Assembly: GCA_017512725.1 (NCBI GenBank)
Contig: JAFWEW010000043.1
Location: forward strand, 96,829 to 160,828
Length of the DNA stretch: 64,000 bases
Reading direction: 5' to 3'
Source of the DNA: Solobacterium sp.
GTDB lineage: Bacteria > Bacillota_I > Bacilli_A > Erysipelotrichales > Erysipelotrichaceae
The position numbers and the translations under genes were made by a program. Of this stretch, positions 20,405 through 45,840 are shown piece by piece. The notes beneath the pieces are model-generated. The model did not search any database, had not been told where the DNA came from, and worked only from the letters and a program-made list of their open reading frames with translations. The stretch's first letter is position 1; each line of letters opens with the position of its first letter.

Positions 20405-22354
20405 TTAAGCGCTGACGGTAGATTTTACCAGTTCCGCTACTTCCTCGCTGGTATCGCAGTTGACTGCCTTGTCCGCCATTGCCTTCATCTCCTCATAGCT
20501 GAGTGAGTTGATGATCTGACGGGCACGCAGGATCGAGGTTGCGCTCATCGAGAACTCATCGAGTCCAAGTCCGAGCAGTACCGGAGCTGCGAGTTCATCA
20601 CCGGCCATCTCACCGCACATGCCGCACCATTTGCCGTTCTTGTGTGCGCCGTCGATCGTCATTTTGATGAGACGCAGTACCGACGGGTTGAGCGGCTGAT
20701 ACAGATAGGATACCGGTTCACTCATACGGTCCGCAGCCATTGAGTACTGAACCAGGTCATTGGTTCCGATCGAGAAGAAGTCTGCATACTTGGAAAGCTG
20801 ATCTGCCAGAACTGCAGCTGCAGGGATTTCAATCATACAGCCGACTTCAACATCGTCTGCGACCTTGACGCCTTCGCTGATCAGTTCGGCTCTTGCCTCA
20901 TCGTAGCAGGCCTTGGCATTCTTGAACTCGTTGACCGTAGCGATCATCGGGAACACGATGCAGAGCTTGCCATAGACGGAAGCACGCAGCAGTGCTCTCA
21001 GCTGGGTGCGGAACACATCCTTGCGGATCAGGCAGAAGCGGACGGCACGAACACCGAGGAACGGGTTCATCTCTTCCGCAAACTCATAGTACTTCAGCTT
21101 CTTGTCACCGCCGATATCCAGTGTACGGATAACGACCGGCTTGCCATTCATGCCTTCCAGTACCTGCTTGTATGCGGCAAACTGAGTCTCTTCATCCGGG
21201 AAGTCGTCTTCACTCTTCATATAGAGGAATTCAGTACGGAACAGGCCTACGCCCTCACCGCCGTTTTCGTTGACGCCTTCGACATCCTTCGGTCCGCCGA
21301 TGTTTCCGACCAGAAGTACCTTGTGTCCGTCGGTGGAAATGGAAGGCTCATTCTTGAGTGCCTTGAGCGCTTCCTTCTGCTTGCGGTATTCTTCACCCTT
21401 TGCGGCATATTCTGCCTTCTGTTCTTCGGTCGGGTTGAGAATGACTTCACCGCTCAGCGCATCGAGAATCACTTCATCGCCGGCCTTGGCTGCTTCCAGA
21501 ATGCCTTTGACGCCGACAACTGCCGGAATCTCAAGCGAACGGGCCATGATGGCGCTGTGGCTGGTACGGCCGCCGATTTCGGTTGCGAAACCCTTTGCGA
21601 ATGCCTTGTTCAAAGAACCGGTATCACTCGGGGTCAGGTCCTTGGCAATAACAACGACCGGTGTGTCGAGTGTGGCAAGATTCGGAATAATCTTTCCGCA
21701 GAGATTGCACTTCAGACGGAACGTAACATCCTTGATATCCGCTGCGCGCTCTCTCATATAGGCATCTTCCATGGATTCAAAGATCGTTACCATCATGTTG
21801 GCAACCTGTTCGGTTGCGTATTCCGCATTGACCTTGTCGTTTTTGATCATCTCCTCGATCTGACCGCGCAGTTCGGGATCTCCTGCCATCATCAGATGCG
21901 CATCAAATACAGCCAGTTCTTCCGGTGCGAGGCTCTTCGACGCAACTTCCTTGATCTTTTCAATGTCTTCCACCGTCTTGGCAAAAGCACTGTCCAGTTT
22001 CGCGAGTTCCTGGTCCGGATCGGACTCGACCATCTTGATGTCGAGTACCGGCTGCTCAAGCTTGTAAACCTTTGCGATTGCAATTCCCTGTGAAGCGGCA
22101 ATACCTTTAAGCATGATTGCTTCGTCCTCCTTCATGCATTGTGTTATCAGTTCCTCTACATCGCGAATGCAGTTCACAGAAAGAATTTCATCATCACCAG
22201 CGGTAATCCCGAATTTTTCTTCCACATTCAGCATGAAATCCACGACATCATAAGAATCCATTCCGACGGAAGAGAACAAGGTATCTTCCATGATCTCTGC
22301 CGGAAGCCGTGCGTACTTCATAGCCAATTGTTTTAAGAACGCAAACCGTTCCAT
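20405..22354 (-). CDS. ptsI: PTS Enzyme I with N-terminal acyl-carrier-protein-like domain
   Basis: Residues ~81-649 are a full phosphoenolpyruvate-protein phosphotransferase: MLKGIAASQGIAIAKVY opening, GGRTSHSAIMARS with the phosphorylated His, GLFRTEFLYM, SIGTNDLVQYSMAADR and CGMCGEMAGD. EI passes phosphate from PEP to HPr. Residues 1-80 look like an acyl carrier protein, with GMDSYDVVDFML in place of the usual DSL motif (candidate phosphopantetheine Ser34). An AAGGAG site precedes the first ATG. A second, AAGGAGG, lies before the internal ATG at 22114, so free EI may also be made. No ptsH is adjacent. Confidence 0.88.
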   Translation of the reverse strand: MERFAFLKQLAMKYARLPAEIMEDTLFSSVGMDSYDVVDFMLNVEEKFGITAGDDEILSVNCIRDVEELITQCMKEDEAIMLKGIAASQGIAIAKVYKLEQPVLDIKMVESDPDQELAKLDSAFAKTVEDIEKIKEVASKSLAPEELAVFDAHLMMAGDPELRGQIEEMIKNDKVNAEYATEQVANMMVTIFESMEDAYMRERAADIKDVTFRLKCNLCGKIIPNLATLDTPVVVIAKDLTPSDTGSLNKAFAKGFATEIGGRTSHSAIMARSLEIPAVVGVKGILEAAKAGDEVILDALSGEVILNPTEEQKAEYAAKGEEYRKQKEALKALKNEPSISTDGHKVLLVGNIGGPKDVEGVNENGGEGVGLFRTEFLYMKSEDDFPDEETQFAAYKQVLEGMNGKPVVIRTLDIGGDKKLKYYEFAEEMNPFLGVRAVRFCLIRKDVFRTQLRALLRASVYGKLCIVFPMIATVNEFKNAKACYDEARAELISEGVKVADDVEVGCMIEIPAAAVLADQLSKYADFFSIGTNDLVQYSMAADRMSEPVSYLYQPLNPSVLRLIKMTIDGAHKNGKWCGMCGEMAGDELAAPVLLGLGLDEFSMSATSILRARQIINSLSYEEMKAMADKAVNCDTSEEVAELVKSTVSA

Positions 22355-31420: not shown

Positions 31421-32332
31421 TTATTCCGGGAAGTTAATTCCTTCCAGAAGCTCGTTTTGGTGTTCCTCCAGGAGGATCATCAGGTCAAACACTCCGATAT
31501 CCGGATGTGACTCCATCAAAGCCTTGATCCGCTTCATGACGGTATCCGCCTGCCCTGCCAGCTGATCAAGCTTCTCGGGCGTCGGATCCTTGACATAGTT
31601 TTCCAACCGTCCCTTGGTGTAGTGTCCGTCTTTGATTCCAAGGAACGTCTCCGCCATGGAGAAGTCATACCGGCCGAGCGCCGCATACAGTCCGACTGCA
31701 TCTGCCGCAAGCTCATCAAATACCGCATTGATCTGATCGTGATACAAACGTCTTGCGACAAAGTGGTTGCATTCATGGAATCGGCGGATTGAGTCCGATT
31801 GTTTCAGCCAGGTCTCTTCATCAATCCCAAAGACCTCCGCCTTCACGGCACTGTACGGGCCATAGGAAAGCAGGATCAGTGCTTCGGTGTAATTCTTTTT
31901 ATCCGCGGTAAACCGGCCGAATTCCTCATCCCAGTCATCTGCTGTTTTACAATATTCTTTCTCATGATCTTTGATCTTCTTCCAGCTGATCACCCCGTCC
32001 AGGATCGAAGCACCCTGCGTGGCGGGAATCTCCGTAATACGGCATTTGCTTGCCATACAATGGAGGGCTGTTTCAAAATCCTTCCGCTGATGAAGCGTAA
32101 CGGCACGGACCTGTCCGGCCGGAGTTTCCATCAGCACACAGCTGTCCCGTTCATCCATCACAAAATGAGAAAGGTCTTTTTTCTCCGCATCCTCTCCGGC
32201 CAGTACGATCGACTTATAAGCCGGGTTGCCTTCTTCCGTGGGCTGAAGATAAAGCTGCTGGTACAGTTCTGCAAGATACGGCAGTGTTTCTTTTCCGACT
32301 GCTTCTTTGATTTCATTTGTCATAATCATCAC
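31421..32332 (-). CDS. Unknown protein with HExxH motif (putative metallohydrolase)
   Basis: 303 residues, soluble, not recognised as a known family. The C-terminal half holds RRFHECNHFVARR, an exact HExxH zinc motif near residue 205, and about 22 residues later DELAADAVG, whose Glu and Asp are positioned like the third ligand of gluzincin peptidases. The start overlaps acpS by 4 bp; internal ATGs at 32329 and 32323 are also possible. It is the last gene of the AMP-ligase/ACP/thioesterase/AcpS operon. Protease activity is only an inference. Confidence 0.6.
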   Translation of the reverse strand: MMIMTNEIKEAVGKETLPYLAELYQQLYLQPTEEGNPAYKSIVLAGEDAEKKDLSHFVMDERDSCVLMETPAGQVRAVTLHQRKDFETALHCMASKCRITEIPATQGASILDGVISWKKIKDHEKEYCKTADDWDEEFGRFTADKKNYTEALILLSYGPYSAVKAEVFGIDEETWLKQSDSIRRFHECNHFVARRLYHDQINAVFDELAADAVGLYAALGRYDFSMAETFLGIKDGHYTKGRLENYVKDPTPEKLDQLAGQADTVMKRIKALMESHPDIGVFDLMILLEEHQNELLEGINFPE

Positions 32333-32646
32333 TTCTCTTTTATGATAGCGGCCGCAACCGCATAGCCTCCGTCATGGGAGATACTGACATCGATCTCCGG
32401 ATGATCCTTTACATAGGGTTTTCCTGATTCTCCGGTCAAAACAGAGAGTGACAGAACATCCTGGATACCGCTTGCCTTGAAGATCGCTTCCTTAGCAGCA
32501 AACCGCCCGCCGATATATTCCCGTCTGCGGGAGTCGATCCGCTTCTGCTGATATTCCTGTTCTTCCTCCTCCGTCAGCAGGTGCCTTCGGAAAGATTCGC
32601 TGCTGATGTCAATCCTGGAAAGATCCACGATATCAATGCCGATCAT
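32329..32646 (-). CDS. acpS: Holo-[acyl-carrier-protein] synthase
   Basis: 105-residue phosphopantetheinyl transferase that converts apo-ACP to holo-ACP using CoA. MIGIDIVDLSRI holds the metal-binding Asp and GGRFAAKEAIFKA the catalytic Glu. Slightly shorter than the usual ~120 residues. Overlaps the thioesterase gene by 4 bp. Its placement beside an ACP gene suggests that ACP is one of its substrates. Confidence 0.92.
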   Translation of the reverse strand: MIGIDIVDLSRIDISSESFRRHLLTEEEEQEYQQKRIDSRRREYIGGRFAAKEAIFKASGIQDVLSLSVLTGESGKPYVKDHPEIDVSISHDGGYAVAAAIIKEK

Positions 32647-33371
32647 AGTTTCTTCGTCCTCATGTATGCCGAGAAGATGGTGTGCCCGCTGGCATTGCCG
32701 TCGATCCGGTAAGTTCCCTGACAGTACTCATAGCAGAGCTCGACCTTGTCGCCATACTCCACTTCCTGTACATAGTTGATCTGGAACTGATCGACCCCTG
32801 TGACTTCATGAAAATGCATGTCGAACAGATCATCGATCCAGTCCAGATAGCGGGTATTGTTCATGTGGCCGTTCAGATCGATATTCGAATACAGTGCCTG
32901 GCGGATGCTGGCGGGGTTGTCCGACGGGATATTCTTCAGTCCCATCGGCAGATCGATCCGGTCTTCTTCCTCGATGCCTTCAATCTCAATATTCTCTTTT
33001 TCCGGATTGATCGCTTCCCGGGTATCCATATTGATCAGCGTCCAGAGTGCCGATCCCCGCAGGACCACTTCTCCTTCCGCATCAATGATCGTATAGTACC
33101 GCGGGAAAACCATATGCATGCGTTCTCCCGGTGAAGTGGATACCGTGATCGTTTCTCCGTAGGTGATTGGCCGGTTCATTTCGACCTTCATCCGTGAGAT
33201 CACCCAGAGGAATCCCCGGTCAAGGGTCCTGTCCCGGGTAAGACCGGTCAGCTCCACATCCGTAATGCTCACTTCCTGCAGAATGGAAAACAGCGCCGAC
33301 ATACGAAGGCGCTGAAACCGATCACATTCAGAAGAAGTTACCGTCAGCTGTTTCCGATATGCCTCAGGCAT
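32643..33371 (-). CDS. Acyl-ACP thioesterase (FatA/FatB-like)
   Basis: 242-residue double hot-dog enzyme releasing fatty acid from acyl-ACP. The first hot dog holds DRGFLWVISRMKVEM and RPITYGETI. The second holds SNIDLNGHMNNTRYLDWI, with the NxHxN-type catalytic motif of plant-type thioesterases. The start at 33371 has a GGAAG site and overlaps the ACP gene by 8 bp. In gut Firmicutes such enzymes set free fatty-acid chain length; the substrate here is unknown. Confidence 0.88.
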   Translation of the reverse strand: MPEAYRKQLTVTSSECDRFQRLRMSALFSILQEVSITDVELTGLTRDRTLDRGFLWVISRMKVEMNRPITYGETITVSTSPGERMHMVFPRYYTIIDAEGEVVLRGSALWTLINMDTREAINPEKENIEIEGIEEEDRIDLPMGLKNIPSDNPASIRQALYSNIDLNGHMNNTRYLDWIDDLFDMHFHEVTGVDQFQINYVQEVEYGDKVELCYEYCQGTYRIDGNASGHTIFSAYMRTKKL

Positions 33372-33624
33372 GTGCTGCTTCCTTTTCCGCTTTGCGGATC
33401 GCATCCATGACATCCTGAACCGTCGCAAGATTCGACCAGGTATCTTCCGGAACCCGGATATGGAACCTTCCTTCGATCTTTGTCATCAGCATAATAAAAC
33501 TCATGGAATCCGCTCCGAGATCCCGGTTGATCACTGTTTCCGGCGTAATGTTTTCCGTCTCCGTTTCCGGCAGACATACATGTATGATCTTCAGCAGTTC
33601 ATCCATCATTTCCTGATCGCTCAT
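33364..33624 (-). CDS. Acyl carrier protein
   Basis: 86-residue carrier protein with DLGADSMSFIMLMTKIE, whose Ser receives the phosphopantetheine arm (DSM in place of DSL). Acidic, four-helix pattern. GGAGG 7 nt upstream fixes the start at 33624, overlapping the AMP-ligase stop by 4 bp. Its operon partners (ligase, thioesterase, AcpS) suggest a dedicated carrier rather than the main fatty-acid-synthesis ACP. Confidence 0.9.
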   Translation of the reverse strand: MSDQEMMDELLKIIHVCLPETETENITPETVINRDLGADSMSFIMLMTKIEGRFHIRVPEDTWSNLATVQDVMDAIRKAEKEAAHA

Positions 33625-34958
33625 AAGCATTCCTCCACTTTCCATCGCTTCAGTTTACCAGTTGCAGTACGCGGAAGCTTTCCGGGGATAATCCGGATAT
33701 TCATGATCCGCTTGCCGATCGGCTGTTTCTCATTAAACGCATCGACCGCTTTTTTCACTTCCTGCTCGCTGCGGTCATTCCCCGCAACCAGCGTCAGCGT
33801 GTCATACATGATCACAAGTGCCACTTCATCGCCAAGCTGTTCCGAAAGCGTGGCTTCCGCTTCCGGCAGGTACAGCTTCTCGCCGTTGGAGAGCACAAGC
33901 ACATCATTCTTGCGGCCAAGAAGATGCAGACGGCCCTGTTCATCCAGTCTTCCAAGATCACCGGTCTTAAGAACACCATCTTTCAGTACGCTGGCCGTTT
34001 CTTCCGGCATGTGCCAGTAACCTTCCATCATGCATTCCGTTTCAACGAGTACTTCGCCGTCTTCCGCGATTGTAATCTTCGTATCCGGGCAGAGATCCAG
34101 TGCAGCAGGATCATCCGCACCGACGGAAATCGCCAGTCCGCTGGCGGTTTCACTCAAACCATAGCCATAACTGAGACGGATCCCCATCTGCTTGATGGCC
34201 TTGAATACCCGATCACTGCAGGGTGCTGCCCCCAGCAGTACCGTATGGCATTCCCGGTTAATACTTTCCGTCGCAAAGAGATAATTGAGAAGCGTCGGCA
34301 CCATGACCAGAATCGTCGTTTTATAGGCGGCCGGATCTTCGGTGTAAAAGCGCATCCCGCGTCCGATCCCGACCGTGGCTCCGTAGGACAGTGGCCAGAG
34401 CAGTGTACAGACAAGCCCGAAAACATGGTTCAGCGGCAGCATCGCAGCAACGACATCGTTTACCCCGCAGGCCAGCATCTGCTGGCCGTTCCAGGCAGAT
34501 CTTGCGAGCGCTCTCTGGGAAAGCACAACTGCCTTGTTGGCCGCAGTGGTTCCGCTCGAGAAGATCACGATACAGCCGGGATACTCCGGTTCCTGAGTGC
34601 CAGACGTAACGGTCACAAAGCCGGCAGCGGAAGGCAGCACCTTTTCAATGCCGAACAGTGTGATCAGTTCCTGTGTCTTGTCTCTTGGAAGTGTCGGATC
34701 CAGCAGTACGGTCCGCTTGTCTGCGATCGCAGCCGCAAAAAAATCCGTGATCCATTCCAAGGAGGCACTTCCGTAAATGCCCACACAGGAACAGTTCTCC
34801 TGTTTCAGCTCTTCTGCACGGGCAAGTACCCGGTCACAGAATGCCGCATAGGAAAACGTCTTCACGCTGCCGGAGGAATCAATCATGCTCAGCGCAGGAT
34901 GGTCCCCGAACGAGCGCTTTCCTCCCTCAATGATCTCTTTGAAATTCGTATATATCAT
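33621..34958 (-). CDS. AMP-dependent ligase (acyl-CoA/acyl-ACP synthetase-like)
   Basis: 445-residue adenylate-forming enzyme. The P-loop-like IVIFSSGTTAANKAVVLS (A3), LSYGYGLSETAS (A5), LKTGDLGRLDEQGRLHLLGRKND (A7/A8) and C-terminal LPRTATGKLKRW with the catalytic Lys are visible. It would activate a carboxylate as the adenylate and load the adjacent ACP. Shorter than classical long-chain synthetases. No Shine-Dalgarno site: an extended -10 (TGCTAGAAT) ends 6 nt before the ATG. Confidence 0.9.
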   Translation of the reverse strand: MIYTNFKEIIEGGKRSFGDHPALSMIDSSGSVKTFSYAAFCDRVLARAEELKQENCSCVGIYGSASLEWITDFFAAAIADKRTVLLDPTLPRDKTQELITLFGIEKVLPSAAGFVTVTSGTQEPEYPGCIVIFSSGTTAANKAVVLSQRALARSAWNGQQMLACGVNDVVAAMLPLNHVFGLVCTLLWPLSYGATVGIGRGMRFYTEDPAAYKTTILVMVPTLLNYLFATESINRECHTVLLGAAPCSDRVFKAIKQMGIRLSYGYGLSETASGLAISVGADDPAALDLCPDTKITIAEDGEVLVETECMMEGYWHMPEETASVLKDGVLKTGDLGRLDEQGRLHLLGRKNDVLVLSNGEKLYLPEAEATLSEQLGDEVALVIMYDTLTLVAGNDRSEQEVKKAVDAFNEKQPIGKRIMNIRIIPGKLPRTATGKLKRWKVEECL

Positions 34959-42967: not shown

Positions 42968-44395
42968 TTATTGAATACGCTCAATGTAGTATCCGCTGTC
43001 TTCCGGCATAAACACTTCATCGATCCAGTCGCCTGTATCCGGATCATAAACAAACAGGATATAGCCCGGTTTGTACCACTGATATCTGATCCGGTCACCT
43101 AGCTCTGCCGTCTGAGTGCTGAACGATACTTTGATTTCGGTATCGTACATGCGGAATTCCGCATCGGCTTCCGCCAGTGCCGTTACCTTGCCCTGTTCCA
43201 GACGATAGATCCGGTTCCCGGTGTTATCCAGCTGTGGTTCCGAAAAGCCGGCTTCTTTCATAGAAGCGTCCAGCAGATCATTTTCTTCTTCATTCAGCTC
43301 GGATTTGATGATGACTGCAGAATAATCCTGCCGTGCGATCTCCTGGAAATAATGGTCCGCGCCCATGATCTTTGCAAGATAATCGTTCTTCTTGGTTCGG
43401 GAATACTCTGCCCATCCCTCATAGGCAGGATCATTCCGATGATCCGGAAGATCATAATGCGCAGACAGGTATTCTCCCAGATACATCGCTGTCTTTCGGG
43501 CACCGGACAGATTCAGATGGGAATCATCATACGAGAAATCGGAGGACTCCAGCCCGATTTCCTGATCCAGCTCATTCATATTGATAAAGACCGTTCCGGT
43601 TTCTTCGGCAATCGCCTTTACCGAGTTGTAATATCCCTGCTCGGCTTCCCGCTGTGCAGTCGGCGTGACAACGAGTACCAGATTTGTTCCGTTTTCCCTG
43701 CACAGGGAAATGATTTTGCGAAGATAGGTCTCCTGTTTTTCGGAGAGAGGAGTACAGGCATCGTTTTTCTCATAATCCAGATCAACCACGATATTGGAAC
43801 CGTAAACTGCCTCACCGCCTTTGACATTCACGTAGCGTTTACTCCAGGGATAAAACGAGAAATCGCCTTCCAGCAGTTCGGAAAACCGGTCATGGTAGAT
43901 CGGAAGTCCGAGAAACAGTTCGAGCCAGCGTTCCTTCGGTGAGGATACCAGGATGTTCTGAATCTGGTTCCGGCTGATATTCAGGCCAAGCGTATTGGTT
44001 GCCTGGCGCGCTTCATCGCTGTATTCATCCGATAGAACCGCACCATATACATCCATTACAACGACTATTGGATCCTGTGTCTTCAGCGCTTCCGCAATAA
44101 AGTGGTAAGTGCTCCAGAACGGCTGACTGGATCCCCAGAGCTGATAGAAACTGATTCCATGACGATCATATAGTTCCTCCGCCGCAATGTTGTAGCAGGC
44201 ATGGGAACTGCCTGTAAACAGCACATCGATACTGTTTTGCGGCTGTTCATAGAAAATCTTCATTGAGGTGATGCCGTCTTCCCGCTTCATAACAAGCGTG
44301 TCGCGGACCACAAGCCACAGCGAAAAGACCACTCCGCAGAGGAGAATGATACGAATCGATCTTCGGATAAATACAATACGATCAGAATGCCGCAT
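42968..44395 (-). CDS. DltD/AlgX-like SGNH membrane-anchored acyltransferase partner
   Basis: 475 residues with one N-terminal TM helix and an extracytoplasmic SGNH-type domain. LFTGSSHACYNIAAEEL supplies the Ser block, FINMNELDQEIGLE and YDDSHLNLSGARKTAMYLG the Asp-His block. It overlaps the MBOAT gene by 14 bp when started at 44395 (GGGGA site upstream). By analogy with PatA/PatB or AlgI/AlgJ it would move acyl groups, delivered across the membrane by the MBOAT protein, onto a surface glycan. The target polymer is unknown. Confidence 0.75.
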   Translation of the reverse strand: MRHSDRIVFIRRSIRIILLCGVVFSLWLVVRDTLVMKREDGITSMKIFYEQPQNSIDVLFTGSSHACYNIAAEELYDRHGISFYQLWGSSQPFWSTYHFIAEALKTQDPIVVVMDVYGAVLSDEYSDEARQATNTLGLNISRNQIQNILVSSPKERWLELFLGLPIYHDRFSELLEGDFSFYPWSKRYVNVKGGEAVYGSNIVVDLDYEKNDACTPLSEKQETYLRKIISLCRENGTNLVLVVTPTAQREAEQGYYNSVKAIAEETGTVFINMNELDQEIGLESSDFSYDDSHLNLSGARKTAMYLGEYLSAHYDLPDHRNDPAYEGWAEYSRTKKNDYLAKIMGADHYFQEIARQDYSAVIIKSELNEEENDLLDASMKEAGFSEPQLDNTGNRIYRLEQGKVTALAEADAEFRMYDTEIKVSFSTQTAELGDRIRYQWYKPGYILFVYDPDTGDWIDEVFMPEDSGYYIERIQ

Positions 44396-45794
44396 AAATA
44401 AAATTCCCCGCATCATACGCCGGTCCATACACACCGGCAATCAGAATCACAAAGAACAGCAGAATCAGGATCCCCCATCGTACTACCAGAATCTCATCGG
44501 TAAGAGCCGAGACACGCACGCCCTTCTCGCGGAGCCACGAAACAATCAGGACCGCCTGCAGCGAAAGCAGAAGCACCAGGAAATGTCCATGATCAAGCGC
44601 ATAGGAGAACAGCGTACCGTCAAAGAAGACATGGGCGCTGAAATCGGTAAAGACCTTCTGGATCATGCCTGTGGCTTCACTTACCGAATCCGCCCGGAAG
44701 TAAACCCATGCGGCAGTTACGATCAGAAACGTAAAAATACACTGTAGAAAACGGAATCCCGTCTTGTTCCGGTCAATGTTCAGTCTGCCGCAGAGCGTTT
44801 CCCGGTAAGGAAGCGTAACTTCCCCAGTGATGCGGTACAGGGCATGAAGCAGTCCCCAGACAAGAAAGTGATTGCCGGTGCCGTGCCACAGCGCACTGAC
44901 CACAAACACCGCAAGAATATTCAGGTATTTTCTTGCAGTGCCCTTCCGGTTGCCGCCGAGCGGAATATATACATATTCGGTCAGCCAGGAAGTCAGAGAC
45001 ATGTGCCAGCGCTTCCAGAAGTCTGCGATACTGATGGCAAAGTACGGCTGCCGGAAATTATCTGCCAGACGATAGCCAAATAATAATGCGACGGCACTGA
45101 CCATACAGGTATAGCCATAGAAATCACAGTAGATCTCAAAGGAATACAGGACGGCCGAGAAGAAGATGATCCCTCCTTCATAGTCGGTATAACCGGCGAA
45201 AACAGGACCGGTAAACAGCGCAAGACGGTCCGCAATGACCATCTTCAGAAATACGCCGTAGAGAAACAGAAAAACTGCACTGACTGCGGTCTGATAAGAC
45301 AGGGATTTTTCGTTTTTGATTTCCGGAAGAAACAGCCTGCTTTTCTGAATCGGACCGGAAACAATACAGGGGAAAAACGAAACAAACAGCGCATAATCGA
45401 TCAGGCTGGTTTCCGGAACCGTCTTTCCGTTATGGATGTCAAACAGATAGGACGAACTCTGAAGAATATAAAACGAGATCCCGATCGGCATGACCAGTCC
45501 GGTCTGCGGAAACAGGCGGATGCCGTACTTGAAAAACAGCAGGATGAACAGGTTCGCCGGAACAAAGAACCAGATCCATTTCGGATTCTTTGAAATGACC
45601 TTTCCCCCGCAGTAGGTAAGCAAAATACAGCCGATCAGTACCAGTGCGTACCACCGGCCGAACGACATATAAAACACCATACTGCCCGCCAGCAAAACCG
45701 CATTCTGGACCATATGGTGATTCTTAAGCGCCCAATAGAAAAGAAGCAGCACCGGAAGGAACAGAATCAGAAAACGAGCACTTGTGTAGGTCAT
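44382..45794 (-). CDS. MBOAT family membrane O-acyltransferase (AlgI/PatA/DltB-like)
   Basis: 470-residue polytopic protein with the AlgI-like core: MPIGISFYILQSSSYLFDI, FFPCIVSGPIQKSRLFLPE, DFWKRWHMSLTSWLTEYVYIPLGGNRKGT, and SALWHGTGNHFLVWGLLHALYR with the conserved His. Such proteins pass acetyl or other acyl groups to the outside. A TATAAT (45807-45802) lies 7 nt before the ATG at 45794 and overlaps the longer in-frame ATG at 45803. No Shine-Dalgarno site, so a leaderless mRNA is likely. Confidence 0.88.
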   Translation of the reverse strand: MTYTSARFLILFLPVLLLFYWALKNHHMVQNAVLLAGSMVFYMSFGRWYALVLIGCILLTYCGGKVISKNPKWIWFFVPANLFILLFFKYGIRLFPQTGLVMPIGISFYILQSSSYLFDIHNGKTVPETSLIDYALFVSFFPCIVSGPIQKSRLFLPEIKNEKSLSYQTAVSAVFLFLYGVFLKMVIADRLALFTGPVFAGYTDYEGGIIFFSAVLYSFEIYCDFYGYTCMVSAVALLFGYRLADNFRQPYFAISIADFWKRWHMSLTSWLTEYVYIPLGGNRKGTARKYLNILAVFVVSALWHGTGNHFLVWGLLHALYRITGEVTLPYRETLCGRLNIDRNKTGFRFLQCIFTFLIVTAAWVYFRADSVSEATGMIQKVFTDFSAHVFFDGTLFSYALDHGHFLVLLLSLQAVLIVSWLREKGVRVSALTDEILVVRWGILILLFFVILIAGVYGPAYDAGNFIYAAF

Positions 45795-45840
45795 GGTTAA
45801 CATTATAAACTACGGACTCTGTTTTTCTGAGAAACGGCAG

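Follow-up and report, generated by a model that had tools for sequence, protein, structure and literature searches.

The 64,000-nucleotide stretch of the Solobacterium sp. contig JAFWEW010000043.1 analysed here (the window) harbours five overlapping open reading frames on the minus strand between positions 31421 and 34958, which had been described in an earlier note and all of which were confirmed. In the direction of transcription they correspond to a stand-alone AMP-forming ligase of 445 aa, a proposed acyl-ACP ligase (LIG, 33621..34958; PF00501, 123.9 bits), a discrete acyl carrier protein (ACP) of 86 aa with a GADSM phosphopantetheine motif (33364..33624; PF00550, 32.5 bits), a predicted FatA/FatB-type acyl-ACP thioesterase with a double hot-dog fold (TE, 242 aa, 32643..33371; PF01643 and PF20791), a short 4'-phosphopantetheinyl transferase (AcpS, 105 aa, 32329..32646; PF01648, 47 bits; TIGR00556, 57 bits) and a DUF7005 protein with an HExxH...DExxAD motif (31421..32332; PF22541, 158 bits). 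Based on homologues, two starts were corrected: ACP begins at 33624 (MSDQ...) and not at 33645, and TE at 33371 (MPEAY...) and not at 33428. With these starts, LIG and ACP overlap by 4 bp (ATGA) and ACP and TE by 8 bp. TE and AcpS share 4 bp (ATGA), as do AcpS and the DUF7005 gene, provided that the GTG at 32332 serves as start codon. The conserved unit at this locus is LIG-ACP-TE, complemented by AcpS, and it is linked to two partners, an isomerase of the polyunsaturated fatty acid isomerase (PAI) type and a CrtI-family FAD protein with its reductase. The gene set probably belongs to a pathway, so far undescribed, in which dietary unsaturated fats are processed.

The TGD, GR and GK(435) motif residues of LIG are invariant in 18 homologues, and its score falls far short of the cut-offs of all named NCBIfam ligases (for MenE, 129 vs. 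330 bits). LIG is assigned to PF00501 with no specific family over its cut-off; it may transfer acyl-AMP to ACP rather than to CoA, similarly to AasS. The serine of the DSM motif is retained in all module ACPs read. TE matches both halves of the acyl-ACP thioesterase profiles over their cut-offs (N-terminal half 82 bits, C-terminal half 65 bits), and its structural model (pLDDT 92) fits the solved acyl-ACP thioesterase 2ess (E 2e-21, TM 0.85) and also matches 5x04 and 2own. The residues D165, N167, H169 and E203 are invariant in 19 sequences; by analogy with FatB, the D-x-N-x-H motif and the glutamate are assigned as catalytic. TE is therefore a putative acyl-ACP hydrolase. With TIGR00516 (acpS), AcpS reaches 49 bits, under the cut-off of 59.8, and its length and PF01648 score are those of a short single-domain transferase. 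As for an anti-phage role, PADLOC matched none of the five proteins.

Module carriers were defined by a TE search in 244 genomes of the Erysipelotrichaceae, the family to which Solobacterium belongs. A close TE was found in 21 of them, and LIG, ACP and TE follow each other in the same order in these 21 genomes, where some loci are truncated by the end of a contig, as well as in G592, a genome from a different family. ACP adjoins TE or LIG in every one of the 21, and all three genes are present except at contig ends. The recurrence of this order across genomes is therefore not due to chance. Further, the distances of LIG and TE correlate at 0.92. Weak TE matches (23-30% identity) in nine more genomes were not counted, since neither ligase nor ACP lies alongside in the mapped loci. 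AcpS is found directly after TE in the window's genome (G000) and in G181, G198, G239 and G240, while in G212 and G218 it is placed after the CrtI-family gene and its reductase; in the subgroup of the window, the purC-rimO region is where the module is found. Thus, the gene neighbourhood is conserved with respect to the LIG-ACP-TE core, whereas AcpS is regular only in close relatives and DUF7005 occurs only here. A ligase scan of 392 genomes across the phylum, which in GTDB does not comprise the Lachnospiraceae, returned the window's genome and G592 only. Among named genomes a single locus was detected, in a Solobacterium metagenome-assembled genome from roe deer omasum with a TE of 64% identity.

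The DUF7005 gene was found in no other module locus read. It is present in 11 of the 244 family genomes in unrelated settings, and in G165, G198 and G210 it lies elsewhere in the genome, outside the operon. Because of this scattered distribution we judged it a passenger that belongs to the operon by position only, and dropped the HExxH protein, previously counted as an operon component, from the module. Its HExxH and DExxAD motifs are invariant in nine sequences. With regard to a possible zinc metallopeptidase of zincin fold, a fold search with its model (pLDDT 94) gave no confident match, the best VIA-align Z of 4.5 being a tie of unrelated rows.

The first partner is a 451-aa FAD protein, which is homologous over its full length to PAI of Propionibacterium acnes (2b9w; 495 bits with phmmer), an enzyme that converts linoleic acid to conjugated linoleic acid (CLA). 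The 21 family genomes that encode it at 72-100% identity are the same 21 that carry the module, a co-occurrence with Fisher values of 9e-31 over the family and 3e-12 within the genus, neither of which is corrected for shared ancestry. In 14 genomes the PAI gene adjoins LIG and is divergent from it. In G218 module and PAI are both located at contig ends, so that adjacency is only likely. In the subgroup of the window, PAI is encoded apart from the module and both are nevertheless retained; in the window's genome it lies at C29:10351-11703, on a different contig from the module. The PAI gene of G210 (L097, G210:C57) contains one in-frame TAG, leaving an open frame of 418 aa, which points to recent decay or an assembly error.

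Beside or near PAI, an iron-sulphur/FAD protein of approximately 935 aa was observed, with a centre resembling the small subunit of glutamate synthase and an N-terminal part of approximately 300 aa outside it (L093:5806-8616 on G000:C29, L101, L102, L104, L106, L108, L111, L054, L055 and L061). It accompanies both PAI subfamilies (for the second one see below), has hypA-like genes alongside in L101 and L104 and also a hypB-like gene in L101, and is a candidate electron carrier or second reductase.

The second partner is a CrtI-family FAD protein, present in 18 of the 21 module genomes (in 17 at at least 71% identity and in G148 at 55%). Wherever its locus was read far enough, including the window's genome, an FAD/NAD/2Fe-2S reductase (FDR) is encoded beside it. 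The CrtI superfamily includes enzymes which reduce conjugated double bonds, such as retinol saturase. In G592, LIG-ACP-TE, CrtI, FDR and an Sfp-type phosphopantetheinyl transferase (PPTase) form one cluster, while PAI was not found in this genome. The module therefore travels with both partners, each of which is dispensable somewhere. In the window's genome, the neighbours of CrtI-FDR (L125:502-7607 on G000:C41) also include an ArsA/CooC-like ATPase, a BadF-like activator and HgdB/BcrB-like proteins, for one of which an HGD-D match was confirmed; the CrtI-FDR loci read in relatives showed none of these.

The window's assembly comprises 2.72 Mb and is 97% complete. No ketosynthase (KAS) was found in it, the sole PF00109 match being a 27-bit fragment inside a thiolase; hence this genome lacks fatty acid synthesis (FAS). 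A true KAS is absent from all 21 module genomes as well. This bears out the description of the locus as a self-contained acyl-carrier module without ketosynthases. It also settles the question whether this ACP, the sole discrete one found in the genome, could be that of fatty acid synthesis, which is ruled out. AcpS is the single PF01648 match of the genome, in which no other PPTase was found. It is not dedicated to the module ACP, because three nonribosomal peptide synthetase (NRPS) proteins of the A-T-C (adenylation-thiolation-condensation) type also contain carrier domains. A PPTase was detected in 19 of 21 module genomes vs. 109 of the 223 others (p 2e-4).

Another carrier-like sequence is an ACP-like segment ahead of ptsI, in frame into Enzyme I of the phosphotransferase system (20405-22354, minus strand; PF00550 28 bits, GMDSYD motif). 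Since ptsI keeps its own Shine-Dalgarno sequence (AAGGAGG) before MLKGIAASQG, fused and separate products are both possible. The segment is fused to ptsI in G198 (L044), as in the window; in G165 (L047:17181-17441) the corresponding reading frame is closed by a TGA codon and no longer encodes the serine.

Where fatty acids are not synthesised, acyl-ACP can come only from LIG, and TE must release chains that the ligase has loaded. Such loading and release would be pointless unless the chains are acted on while carrier-bound or the release is regulatory. We consider, at about even odds, that LIG-ACP-TE, primed by AcpS, is a load/release module by which Erysipelotrichaceae without FAS handle unsaturated fatty acids of exogenous origin. 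In favour of this are the co-occurrence and adjacency with PAI and CrtI-FDR, the lack of KAS, the more frequent PPTase, the correlated distances of LIG and TE and the intact TE residues. AcpS would convert ACP to the holo form, and LIG would load a fatty acid from the gut or rumen onto it at the expense of ATP. The carrier-bound acid (for the isomerase perhaps the acid just before loading) would then be processed by PAI and, in most genomes, by the CrtI-family oxidoreductase, which, fed by FDR, could reduce a double bond, possibly a conjugated one. Finally, TE would hydrolyse the modified acyl-ACP. With ligase and thioesterase on one carrier the cycle had seemed futile unless a third party used the acyl-ACP; if the chain is altered between LIG and TE, it is not futile. 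Concrete candidates for this third party are now at hand in the PAI-type isomerase and the CrtI-family oxidoreductase. We infer that LIG loads this ACP, that a C18 unsaturated acid is the substrate, and that CrtI and its reductase act on acyl-ACP.

Several observations weigh against this proposal. First, PAI of P. acnes reportedly works alone on linoleic acid (PMC2885616): expressed without companions in other bacteria, it is said to convert the added acid. Its residues Arg88 and Phe193 are kept in both PAI subfamilies, so that the ACP is perhaps unneeded. In P. acnes PAI, these residues form the gate for the carboxylate of the free substrate. Thus PAI may well act on the free acid, possibly before loading, and for the same reasons the more likely user of acyl-ACP is, in our view, CrtI-FDR or else the entire module. 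Second, a PAI subfamily of approximately 57% identity is found in 25 genomes without the module, and LIG and PAI distances correlate at only 0.44. Third, 18 of the 21 module genomes belong to one genus, which leaves few independent co-occurrence events. Further, the CrtI partner is missing from three module genomes (G172, G187 and G206), and no PPTase match was obtained in the module genomes G187 (92% complete) and G004 (87% complete). Last but not least, the substrate and the carrier specificity of the ligase are not readable from sequence.

Among other explanations, salvage for membrane lipids fares best, and we still regard it as unlikely. LIG would provide acyl-ACP for phospholipid acyltransferases and TE would trim the excess, while the link to PAI and CrtI would reflect a shared handling of host fatty acids. 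Indeed, a genome without KAS must import fatty acids, and Lactobacillus johnsonii, which lacks FAS, keeps AcpS and an AcpB-type ACP located by plsX, proposed to serve the PlsC step (PMC6509188). However, PlsX is absent from the window's genome and from every genus-mate searched, whether or not it carries the module, and a hydrolase in the same operon would counteract salvage. Moreover, genus-mates without any PPTase match exist, such as G031, a single contig of 99% completeness; membranes of this genus therefore do not depend on holo-ACP.

Somewhat less probable still is that LIG and ACP prime a condensation domain with an acyl group for an amide or lipopeptide, as in fatty acid amide (FAA) clusters or lipo-NRPS, with TE as an editing enzyme. 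In Coprococcus, a free-standing ligase, an ACP and a condensation domain yield fatty acid amides (PMC13142362), and the three NRPS proteins of the window's genome need its sole AcpS. On the other hand, these NRPS genes are on other contigs, and the module loci that were read show no sign of an adjoining condensation domain; here the five window genes were checked by Pfam, and the neighbours in relatives were assessed from their similarity and N-terminal sequences, with Pfam applied to part of them. In addition, the invariant third gene encodes TE instead of a condensation domain, and the constant partners are an isomerase and oxidoreductases.

An equally small chance is left to a buffer for detoxification or sensing, in which linoleate would be trapped as acyl-ACP for membrane protection or signalling and TE would reset the system, with PAI and CrtI acting on the free acid. 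In several genomes, that of the window among them, a GntR/FCD-type regulator and CrtI are divergently encoded, the free-acid site is kept in PAI, and acyl-AcpB was proposed as a regulatory ligand in Enterococcus faecalis (PMC6509188). Nevertheless, a stoichiometric trap needs far more ACP than flux allows, TE would undo it, and the module itself holds no regulator. A remnant of FAS was rejected on account of the missing KAS and PlsX, and D-alanylation by DltA/DltC because the DltC model scored 14.8 bits where 68 are required and the nearby MBOAT/SGNH pair is not kept with the module. This pair (42968-45803, minus strand), an MBOAT acyltransferase with an SGNH/GDSL-like partner, resembles those for O-acylation of cell walls or polysaccharides.

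Returning to the load/release module, it is tempting to speculate, although with clearly less confidence than for the module itself, that Erysipelotrichaceae of gut and rumen use a dedicated ACP for the isomerisation and hydrogenation of polyunsaturated acids from the diet: LIG would load linoleate or its product CLA, the CrtI/flavin reductase would saturate a double bond of the carrier-bound chain, and TE would release the product. If true, biohydrogenation would here follow an ACP-dependent route, for which candidate CLA reductase genes are at hand. According to a study of 2023 (PMC10019597), knowledge of the species involved in trans-10 biohydrogenation is limited, and t10,c12-CLA is linked to low milk fat. 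The families of PAI-bearing genomes named in that study are Lachnospiraceae and Oscillospiraceae, four genomes being unclassified; full-length PAI homologues are now placed in Erysipelotrichaceae. The gene set further suggests that one step takes place on the carrier, and it supplies candidate genes for the reductase that are amenable to direct expression. The proposed pathway would also account for the retention of ACP, acyl-ACP thioesterase and phosphopantetheinyl transferase in a genome without FAS.

Although an ACP module joined to PAI and CrtI was not found described in the literature (mostly open papers), its parts resemble known systems. Of the earlier interpretation, the core module, its conservation and the lack of KAS stood, while the HExxH component, the dedicated AcpS and the lack of precedent did not. 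The latter was too strong a statement, since pairs of ligase and ACP load exogenous fatty acids in gut FAA clusters (PMC13142362). For example, the oaa cluster of Coprococcus eutactus (OaaA, OaaACP and OaaC) likewise encodes, in separate genes of a gut Firmicute, a stand-alone adenylating enzyme and a discrete ACP for an exogenous fatty acid. The window has this ligase and ACP and lacks the free-standing condensation domain with which FAA clusters end, forming the amide; here a FatA/FatB-type TE and the partners PAI and CrtI/flavin reductase are found instead. The PAI partner shares with the t10,c12-CLA-forming enzyme of P. acnes its full length (495 bits), Arg88 and Phe193. However, the latter was described as a single enzyme acting on free linoleic acid, and no companion ACP module is described for it in the papers examined. 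TE has the double hot-dog fold and the D-x-N-x-H...E residues of FatA/FatB thioesterases (2ess, 2own and 5x04). These usually end de novo fatty acid synthesis, whereas here, where no synthase exists, the substrate must be ligase-loaded acyl-ACP. Finally, AcpB of Lactobacillales is likewise an ACP for exogenous fatty acids where FAS is reduced or absent. It is charged via FakAB and PlsX (PMC6509188), whereas in the module described here, in genomes where PlsX is missing, the ligase is encoded together with the ACP.

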